Below, piece after piece: positions 2,153-4,116 of a stretch of DNA of 32,432 nt. This DNA comes from a virus: the IMG/VR virus record IMGVR_UViG_3300024308_000051, positions 1 through 32,432 of that record; one strand, 5' to 3'. The position numbers and the translations under genes are program-made. Each line of letters starts with the position of its first letter. Position 1 is the first letter of the stretch. The notes below the pieces were generated by a model that saw only the letters and a program-made list of their open reading frames with translations, ran no database searches and had not been told where the DNA came from.

Positions 2153-2181
2153 AAAATACAATCCGTATTTATTGCGGTCAA
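2153..2181 (-). promoter_or_regulatory. Leftward early promoter (PL-like)
   Basis: Read on the minus strand there is a -35 hexamer TTGACC (plus-strand 2176-2181), a 17-base spacer and a -10 hexamer TATTTT (2153-2158). Transcription would start near 2146 and read into the operon that begins at 2116. Both elements overlap repressor operator copies. The -10 sits at the same position relative to its operator as in the rightward promoter at 3838-3866, which strongly supports the assignment. Confidence 0.78.
2154..2170. promoter_or_regulatory. Repressor operator, leftward proximal copy
   Basis: This 17-bp inverted repeat has perfect six-base arms, AAATAC-N5-GTATTT. The identical arms occur at 3849-3865 in the cro promoter. 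It covers the -10 and spacer of the leftward promoter, so binding should block transcription of the operon. Likely bound by the repressor encoded at 3158-3781 and by Cro; the protein assignment is inference. Confidence 0.78.
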
Positions 2182-2195
2182 TACTGAATGTATTT
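2179..2195. promoter_or_regulatory. Repressor operator, leftward distal copy
   Basis: A second copy of the 17-bp element (CAATAC-N5-GTATTT) matches 11 of the 12 arm positions. Its centre is 25 bp from that of the first copy, and it overlaps the -35 of the leftward promoter. The spacing would allow cooperative binding of repressor dimers on nearly the same face of the helix. Confidence 0.7.
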
Positions 2196-2215: not shown

Positions 2216-2237
2216 AAACCCCGCAGGTGCGGGGTTT
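2216..2237 (-). terminator. Rho-independent terminator of the repressor/HIRAN transcript
   Basis: A 9-bp perfect stem (AAACCCCGC with GCGGGGTTT) and a 4-base loop are followed, on the minus strand, by TTTTTAATA. It lies 21 bases beyond the stop of the HIRAN gene at 2259 and just ahead of the leftward promoter region. It would end the lysogenic transcript before that operon. Confidence 0.85.
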
Positions 2238-2258: not shown

Positions 2259-3134
2259 TCAGCTGCGTATCCACCAGATGAAAAGGGCAATCAGCGCTGC
2301 CCATATAAGAAGTCCTTGAATGAGCTTCTTCCGGTTTTCCTCTCGGGCTTTGCTGATGTGAGCTGATACGGCATCACTGCTTAATCCGCCGTGGCCAGCC
2401 GCCTCTGGTGTGAACACCTGCAGCTGCACCACTGGGATTGGCGTGCGGCCGCGGGTGAGGAGCTTCGTTATGGAGGCTTTCTGGTGCCACTGTTGGTCGA
2501 GCAGAGGGGCGAGGGTGACAGCGATGTCTTCCGGAACGAAGCCAATCTGTTCGCCGTCAGTGGTCAGGACTGCAACAGCATGGCGGCTGTACTTATTGTT
2601 GTAGTCGCGGCGGAGGTACACATTGTCTCCGGCGCTGACGCTGTCCTCGATGATGCTATCTCGGCCTTCGTGGCGTGTGCCTGCCACCATAAAGTTGAAC
2701 GATCGTCCTTTGTTCTGCGCCTTCTGCTTGCGTTCTTCTTCCCGCTGCGCTGCTGCGGCTGCTTTCTCTTCGGCCTTGCCCTCGGCCTGGGCTTGGCGGC
2801 GCAGGTCAGTGGCAATCCGGCGGTGCTCTGGGGGTAATACAGTCTCAATCGCTTTGTAGACTGCTTGCCGCTCGTCGTCGGTGATGATCCCGTCGAGCAG
2901 GACTTCTTCCAGGGTTGCGGCCAAGTGCTGGATTGCGGGGAGGTCGTGCCCTTGGTTGTCGCTGATCCACTTCCGCAGCTCGTGCACTTCGTCATCCGAG
3001 AGACGGCCGTCGCTGGTCACGCTCTGACAGATCACCAGCAATTGCATGCCTGTGTCGGCCTGTAGCTGTTTTGCGGTGAGGGAGATGCGCGGCTTGCTGG
3101 GCTTCGCTGCTTTGGTCTCGGTAGGCTGGTCCAT
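2259..3134 (-). CDS. Membrane-anchored HIRAN-domain protein with TerB-like N-terminus
   Basis: The product is 291 residues, starting MDQPTETK with AGGGA about 9 bases upstream. The N-terminal third contains two similar acidic helix-loop motifs, 'SDGRLSDDEVHELRKWI' (41-57) and 'LDGIITDDERQAVYKAI' (80-96), reminiscent of TerB or tellurite-resistance-type domains. A charged Ala/Glu/Lys/Arg coiled coil covers about 112-143. A HIRAN domain follows (about 146-235): 'FNFMVAGTRHEGR', 'DNVYLRRDYNNKYSRHAVAV' and 'GEQIGFVPEDIA'. HIRAN domains occur in DNA-repair helicases (HLTF/Rad5), where they bind DNA 3' ends, and in stand-alone bacterial and phage proteins. The C-terminus (270-288, 'KLIQGLLIWAALIALFIWWI') is a single membrane span with a short polar tail. 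The gene lies 23 bases downstream of the repressor, probably on the same transcript, in the position of lambda rex. I infer expression in the lysogen, perhaps for exclusion; function is not established. Confidence 0.8.
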   Translation of the reverse strand: MDQPTETKAAKPSKPRISLTAKQLQADTGMQLLVICQSVTSDGRLSDDEVHELRKWISDNQGHDLPAIQHLAATLEEVLLDGIITDDERQAVYKAIETVLPPEHRRIATDLRRQAQAEGKAEEKAAAAAQREEERKQKAQNKGRSFNFMVAGTRHEGRDSIIEDSVSAGDNVYLRRDYNNKYSRHAVAVLTTDGEQIGFVPEDIAVTLAPLLDQQWHQKASITKLLTRGRTPIPVVQLQVFTPEAAGHGGLSSDAVSAHISKAREENRKKLIQGLLIWAALIALFIWWIRS

Positions 3135-3157
3135 CTGCGGCGTCCCTGCGCTGGCGA

Positions 3158-3788: not shown

Positions 3789-3816
3789 ATCCTACAGCTT
3801 GTATTTTTCCAGACAA
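3789..3816 (-). promoter_or_regulatory. Candidate repressor-maintenance promoter (PRM-like), leaderless
   Basis: On the minus strand TTGTCT (plus 3811-3816), a 16-base spacer and TAGGAT (3789-3794) stand directly before the repressor ATG at 3781. Transcription would begin at or within a base or two of the start codon, and no ribosome binding site is visible. The operator at 3790-3806 overlaps the -10 and spacer, so high repressor levels could autoregulate. Assignment by inspection only. Confidence 0.5.
3790..3806. promoter_or_regulatory. Operator copy next to the repressor gene
   Basis: TCCTAC-N5-GTATTT has the same 17-bp layout as the other operators, with 9 of 12 arm positions matching. 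The match is strongest in the right half-site. It overlaps the candidate PRM -10, making it the likely low-affinity, autoregulatory site (OR3-like); the affinity order is inference. Confidence 0.55.
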
Positions 3817-3837: not shown

Positions 3838-3866
3838 TTGCAGCCAATAAATACATAATGTATTTT
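3838..3866 (+). promoter_or_regulatory. Rightward early promoter (PR-like)
   Basis: TTGCAG (3838-3843), a 17-base spacer and TATTTT (3861-3866) precede cro. The -10 is identical to that of the leftward promoter, and its position relative to its operator is the same to the base. Transcription would start near 3873 and read cro, the CII-like gene and the replication genes. Confidence 0.76.
3849..3865. promoter_or_regulatory. Repressor operator at the cro promoter
   Basis: This is the best copy of the operator. AAATACAT and ATGTATTT form eight-base perfect arms around a single central base. It lies over the spacer and -10 of the rightward promoter, so repressor or Cro binding should block early rightward transcription. 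Confidence 0.8.
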
Positions 3867-3891: not shown

Positions 3892-4116
3892 ATGAGCGCC
3901 CTTAGCATTGCCCGCAAGAAGGCGGGAATAACACAACAACAGCTGGCCGGCTTGGTCGGTCTGACTCAGGCCGCGATAGGTCACTACGAGCGCGGTCGGC
4001 GTACGCCTGGCCTGAGCGAGTGCCGCAGAATCGTGGCTGCTCTTAACGGGTTGGGTGTTGTTTGTTCGCTGGAAGATGTTTTCCCAGCGCCGGCTGAGCA
4101 TAGCGCCGCCGCCTGA
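3892..4116 (+). CDS. cro: Cro-like transcriptional regulator
   Basis: The product is 74 residues, a single XRE-type helix-turn-helix: 'SIARKKAGITQQQLAGLVGLTQAAIGHYERG' spread over 5-35. The recognition helix ('TQAAIGHYERGRR') resembles that of the repressor ('TQGAVGHWLNGKR'), as expected for two proteins sharing operators. The ATG at 3892 was chosen because GGAGG lies six bases upstream; the in-frame ATG 21 bases earlier lacks such a site. The gene is divergent from the repressor and first on the rightward early transcript. Its expected role is to shut off repressor synthesis during lytic growth. A GC-rich hairpin begins four bases after its stop. Confidence 0.86.
   Translation: MSALSIARKKAGITQQQLAGLVGLTQAAIGHYERGRRTPGLSECRRIVAALNGLGVVCSLEDVFPAPAEHSAAA

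Follow-up and report, generated by a model that had tools for sequence, protein, structure and literature searches.

TerB-like proteins are already part of the defense system Shango (PMC10250203), and phage-end sensing by HIRAN has already been proposed for HipN and HipL (PMC8262856). In the Vibrio phage K139, Orf2 is a protein of two helical modules and a BRCT domain, whose gene starts 26 bases after cI; the operon is annotated as lysogenic and continues with glo, an exclusion gene. One review credits Orf2 with superinfection immunity (PMC7997343), whereas exclusion by K139 is elsewhere credited to Glo and not to Orf2 (PMC8537503), as it is in the GenBank annotation. We regard the support that Orf2 lends to exclusion as second-hand and contested. 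Here, we compare these systems with a gene from a window of 32,432 nucleotides, the whole stretch of DNA analyzed (positions 1 to 32,432 of the IMG/VR virus record IMGVR_UViG_3300024308_000051). The head genes of this temperate phage are 78% identical (DNA) to those of Stutzerimonas phage PG1, and its host, judged from a virus record that comes without a host genome, is probably Pseudomonas or a close relative.

The gene encodes a protein of 291 residues and follows a CI-type repressor gene (Table 1), with a gap of 23 bases (3135–3157), exactly the spacing given by the sequence-only reading. Its ATG is preceded by an AGGGA ribosome site. A mechanical ORF caller lists 412 residues, as the frame continues into the repressor gene; the shorter form is backed by the alignment of two homologues (L260 and L261, see below), whose starts nearly coincide with this ATG. 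Just past the stop codon lies a hairpin followed by T's, which the terminator scanner missed and RNA folding detected; it is indeed the strong terminator that had been announced. Palindromes AATACNNNATGTATTT occur as one pair left of the HIRAN gene and one pair in the cI-cro gap, and the operator pattern gave 8 matches on both strands vs. 0.6 expected, 7 of them in those two regions. Therefore, cI and the HIRAN gene lie between left and right operator-like regions, as cI and rex do in lambda, and the claim that the gene is isolated from both early operons was borne out.

Table 1. Features of the cI-HIRAN locus, in positions of the window.
Feature	Position	Strand	Basis
Operator-like palindrome, OL-like 1	2155..2170	.	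Pattern search
Operator-like palindrome, OL-like 2	2180..2195	.	Pattern search
Intrinsic terminator of the cI-HIRAN operon	2216..2237	minus	RNA fold -15.7 kcal/mol, z -5.1
TerB-like/HIRAN/membrane-anchor protein, 291 aa	2259..3134	minus	ATG at 3134, stop 2259-2261
C-terminal membrane helix, residues ~271-289	2268..2324	minus	Hydropathy; conserved in L260, L261
HIRAN domain, residues 145-217	2484..2702	minus	Pfam PF08797; HLTF = best PDB match
Charged coiled-coil helix, residues 102-142	2709..2831	minus	AlphaFold2
EF-hand/TerB-like helical module, residues ~16-104	2823..3089	minus	phrog_3989 match, AlphaFold2 helices, phmmer to K139 Orf2
CI-type repressor, HTH_3 + Peptidase_S24, 207 aa	3158..3781	minus	Pfam
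Weak operator-like site, 3 mismatches	3791..3806	.	Pattern search
Operator-like palindrome, OR-like, cI-cro gap	3850..3865	.	Pattern search
Cro-like HTH gene, first of rightward operon	3892..4116	+	ORF; HTH motif read from sequence

The rex position attributed to the gene also stands, since the layout is that of lambda OL-rex-cI-OR: the gene is found between cI and the left operator, on the cI strand, with its own terminator. It shares with lambda RexA/RexB this place between cI and OL, co-transcription with cI by layout, and a membrane component. However, lambda has two genes, no similarity was found between the proteins, and the RexA-RexB model is not transferable to this locus.

The proposed protein of 291 residues with HIRAN, coiled coil and C-terminal membrane span was confirmed by Pfam, AlphaFold2, hydropathy and homologues, and HIRAN, coil and anchor were each detected by independent tools. 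With relatives supplied, AlphaFold2 predicted two helix-strand-helix units (residues 28–42/47–60 and 66–79/86–99), one long helix (102–142) and a C-terminal helix (253–290). The mean pLDDT was 56 without relatives and 66.5 with relatives of the first half, the HIRAN part being still weak. HIRAN is the sole Pfam domain of the protein, in which neither a catalytic nor a killing domain could be seen.

The two acidic motifs that had been called TerB-like (TSDGRLSDDE and LLDGIITDDE) are present, and they sit in the region that matches phrog_3989 (residues 31–104, E 1e-11). The name TerB, on the other hand, is unsupported by Pfam: the family PF05099 gave no hit for the protein, and the best of 14 family members reached E 0.076. 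The predicted four-helix unit, made of two helix-strand-helix halves, gave helical bundles only in the PDB comparison (Z up to 8), and Foldseek and VIA gave no name for the fold. As far as these comparisons go, the resemblance to TerB is at motif level only. The similarity of our protein to Shango SngA, a TerB-like defense protein that also has acidic ADGxxSxxE motifs, is likewise at motif level only; the partners of SngA are a DNA helicase/ATPase, and no SngB or SngC is present at the locus of the window. When the module alone was used as phmmer query against the ORFs of the fetched loci, K139 Orf2 was retrieved at E 3e-9; the modules are so divergent that their joint alignment did not make a usable search query. 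Thus, the likeness to phrog_3989 (K139 Orf2; Pseudomonas phages PG1, Lodos and phi1) consists in a homologous N-terminal helical module and in the place behind the repressor in a lysogeny operon. The C-terminal BRCT of phrog_3989 is in contrast absent from our protein, which has HIRAN instead (Pfam), no membrane helix was seen in phrog_3989, and the K139 type has two helical modules.

The HIRAN domain matched PF08797 with 53.8 bits, against a gathering cut-off of 24.7 (E 1.8e-14), and the HIRAN chains of HLTF were the best PDB matches both by sequence (E 8e-5) and by fold. The HIRAN fold is shared with HLTF/Rad5; the helicase of these proteins is missing here. In HLTF, the residues contacting DNA, which we take to be R71, Y72/Y73, N90/N91, Y93, D94, H110 and K113, are only partly matched. 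The alignment gave counterparts of R71, N90/N91 and Y93, with N-N-x-Y kept, and none for Y72/Y73, D94, H110 and K113, the last three positions being occupied by S, F and E. The serine in place of the aspartate of NNPYD and the phenylalanine in place of the histidine of VGH are common to all three members of the TerB-HIRAN family, so that the pocket may bind something else. These two changes are a mark of the TerB-HIRAN family and, with a 3'-end pocket kept in part, call for caution before HLTF-like end binding is assumed. Of the membrane-tethered sensor of DNA ends that had been suggested, the tether stands as part of the architecture, whereas the case for a sensor of DNA ends is weaker, as some of the pocket residues of HLTF are missing.

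Residues 271–289 are the only membrane-grade hydrophobic stretch of the protein (hydropathy 2.27 in a 19-residue window at residue 271, a value reached by 14 of 2000 shuffles). RKK precedes this helix, which would be a tail anchor with the N-terminal side of the protein in the cytoplasm. In the homologue L260, the C-terminal membrane helix has a different sequence and a hydropathy of 2.56. The persistence of a membrane helix through such a divergence of sequence argues well for the importance of the anchor. A membrane-bound HIRAN is also a recurrent design elsewhere: many other small proteins with HIRAN, from phages as well as from Pseudomonadaceae (L155, L159, L167, L168, L176, L177, L178, L184) have one membrane helix, N- or C-terminal. 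The short HIRAN proteins L139, L140 and L141 start with signal-like sequences, Tat-like in L139 and L140 (RRDFFK, RRHFLK), and are possibly exported, which would be odd for a DNA-end binder.

These features lead to the question of a repurposed HIRAN, which would have lost DNA-end binding and become a protein-binding module, acting in exclusion at the envelope, for example by blocking DNA entry, or as one half of a toxin-antitoxin-like pair. The changes of the pocket, common to the TerB-HIRAN family, the membrane anchor and the export signals on some HIRAN proteins go in this direction. We nevertheless consider this explanation quite unlikely, as the core of the domain is otherwise well kept and BRCT, another domain of DNA-end/phosphate binding type, fills the same place in the cousins. 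HipN, of the toxin-antitoxin hipIN (PADLOC candidate M03), shares HIRAN with our protein (E 1.6e-12), but it has a HipS-like N-terminus and an adjacent HipI kinase and does not lie behind a repressor; the window has neither of the first two. The PADLOC label PDC-M03B was rejected, the match being limited to HIRAN (residues 140–228) and the true members (L123–L134) having another N-terminus. No HipA-type kinase gene adjoins the HIRAN gene, the neighbors of which are cI and the leftward early operon.

No full-length relative came up when viral_contigs, genome_contigs, phages and plasmids were scanned with the single protein, and no TerB-HIRAN relative was found among 398 Pseudomonadaceae genomes. 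A wider search in 369 genomes of the class revealed L260 (48% identity over residues 16–251, E 2.4e-58), which retains the module, HIRAN, the PIPVVQ segment after HIRAN and the C-terminal membrane helix. This homologue has no repressor context; toxin-antitoxin genes adjoin instead, with a VapC/DUF433-type pair on one side and a hipBA pair on the other (read by eye). With L260 as query, a further homologue of the same architecture (about 35% identity) was found on L261, a viral contig of 38.9 kb, where the gene lies 72 bases behind an S24 repressor in a phage that otherwise differs from that of the window. A last scan with all three TerB-HIRAN proteins as queries gave no further members. The TerB-HIRAN proteins form a small separate family.

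Behind the closest relatives of the repressor of the window, the content of the slot is variable: L006 has a Gp49/HTH toxin-antitoxin-like pair, L007–L009, L055 and L056 have coiled-coil proteins whose C-terminus is hydrophobic, and L058 has a PLD nuclease. Such variability, together with the fact that passenger genes accumulate in slots that follow a terminator or a repressor, would suit a neutral moron gene settled at an insertion-tolerant site. Against this explanation, which we hold to be highly improbable, the same architecture and position recur in two otherwise different phages, and the membrane helix is kept despite the divergence of the sequence. For the slot protein of L012, a SLATT-like nature was considered and rejected, as Pfam gave no match; all that can be said is that it is a membrane protein and that its helices are hydrophobic. 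Also, the repressor itself and those of L006–L012 have nearly identical S24 halves and unrelated DNA-binding halves, which is a mosaic exchange within the gene.

The module is also found in the TerB-BRCT cousins. In PG1, a sister phage by its head genes, the S24 repressor is followed by one small gene and then by a protein with the module and BRCT, whose relatives are present in Lodos and phi1 and, at 30% identity, as Orf2 in the Vibrio phages K139 and kappa. A same-strand S24/CI repressor lies within 1.5 kb upstream at 52 of the 67 module loci (18 of 23 sequence clusters), often with a gap of 26–30 bases; among the remaining loci, some have other HTH regulators and some start near a contig end. 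The module was detected in 25 of 298 Pseudomonadaceae genomes and, when the class was searched, in 16 of 274. BRCT is present in nearly all intact long genomic members, L229 and L230 being short double-module proteins without it. Thus, the repressor neighborhood is kept in L261 and in most relatives of the N-terminal module, and a role in lysogeny is therefore supported. Homologues outside repressor contexts do exist, namely L260 beside its toxin-antitoxin genes and some of the TerB-BRCT cousins at ordinary chromosomal loci. They go in part against the superinfection exclusion proposed at first, but no housekeeping role was shown for them.

Some genomic TerB-BRCT genes (20 loci examined) adjoin defense or toxin genes. 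In L239, TerB-BRCT is the third gene of a Gabija gajA-gajB operon, its start overlapping the gajB stop, and in L240 (70–6418) it lies about 420 bases after Shango sngA-sngB-sngC, on the same strand. It also adjoins AbiD (L243, L251), PDC-S42 (L244), PDC-M28 (L245) and a zeta toxin (L246); the other loci of the 20 lie among ordinary chromosomal genes. As the neighbors scanned with PADLOC were picked by hand, this association with defense and toxin genes is suggestive only.

Several features of these loci are worth recording by themselves. An AGGAGG site precedes the TerB-BRCT ATG in L239 (1456–6539), and the gene appears to be an accessory gene of Gabija not described so far. Another gene, conserved and coding for about 130 aa (GLIKCWE...WKGGV...YLAQWQGL), is found in L004 (23523–23972, minus strand), and alike in L080, L193, L195, L198, L248 and L256, either between the repressor and TerB-BRCT or, at chromosomal loci, directly before TerB-BRCT; its PG1 copy had no Pfam match. 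In the prophage of L147 (2878–5870), an HTH repressor is followed by a coiled-coil membrane protein, then by a double TerB-BRCT and an integrase. In the Sulfurimonas phage SNW-1 (L054, 2262–3983), TerB-BRCT faces cII; it is not preceded by a repressor, and the next gene is of the thermonuclease family.

The place of these genes could also indicate a control of lysogeny, the protein sensing DNA ends or gaps from damage to host DNA and adjusting how stable its own prophage is or how readily it is induced; it might, for example, retain or pass on the repressor or signals of the RecA type. The operon is shared with an S24 repressor, a protein that cleaves itself in response to DNA damage, both HIRAN and BRCT occur in DNA-damage proteins, and the coupling to cI is conserved in several phage groups. 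However, this explanation, unlikely in our opinion, leaves without account the membrane anchor, the presence of TerB-BRCT behind defense genes, those of Gabija and Shango included, and the full-length homologue without a repressor. Decidedly improbable is a membrane-bound adaptor that would shield or repair DNA ends, for example those of the phage itself on entry, and so aid circularization or survival. It would account for the swapping of DNA-end type domains (HIRAN, BRCT) on one scaffold, and TerB-BRCT in the Gabija operon could protect self DNA; yet a gene expressed from the operon of the repressor is more likely to serve in the lysogenic state than on entry, and the operon contains no repair enzyme.

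We tentatively favor, with somewhat less than even confidence, a lysogen-expressed, tail-anchored protein of the rex position that would act in superinfection exclusion or defense. The HIRAN gene would be co-transcribed with cI in the lysogen, and the C-terminal anchor would hold its product at the cytoplasmic membrane, on the inner face. There, HIRAN might bind DNA ends or single-stranded DNA from another phage, replicating or entering, and the coiled coil might relay the signal to the EF-hand/TerB-like module. The module would then recruit or trigger a response stopping the second phage, by exclusion or abortive defense. A broader proposal, possible and rather doubtful, is a class of prophage guards, in which one TerB/EF-hand-like scaffold behind the repressor would carry interchangeable readers of DNA ends (BRCT or HIRAN). 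Here the scaffold would be tethered to the membrane so as to detect foreign DNA ends at their site of entry, and the cellular copies would be add-ons of Gabija and Shango.

The view that this architecture had not been described stands, as no paper was found in which TerB is combined in this way with HIRAN, or with BRCT in a phage. The parts are of known kinds; their combination, the membrane anchor and the repeated rex position appear to be new. If the reading as a rex-position exclusion or defense protein is true, it would give a mechanism-level handle on genes of this position, which are mostly unexplained. It would also link K139 Orf2, located in a lysogeny operon and known since 1999, to a family that accompanies Gabija and Shango. 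The exchange of HIRAN for BRCT on one scaffold makes a direct prediction, namely that both domains have the same kind of ligand, and the TerB-HIRAN/BRCT family, being small and compact, lends itself to tests in laboratory strains.
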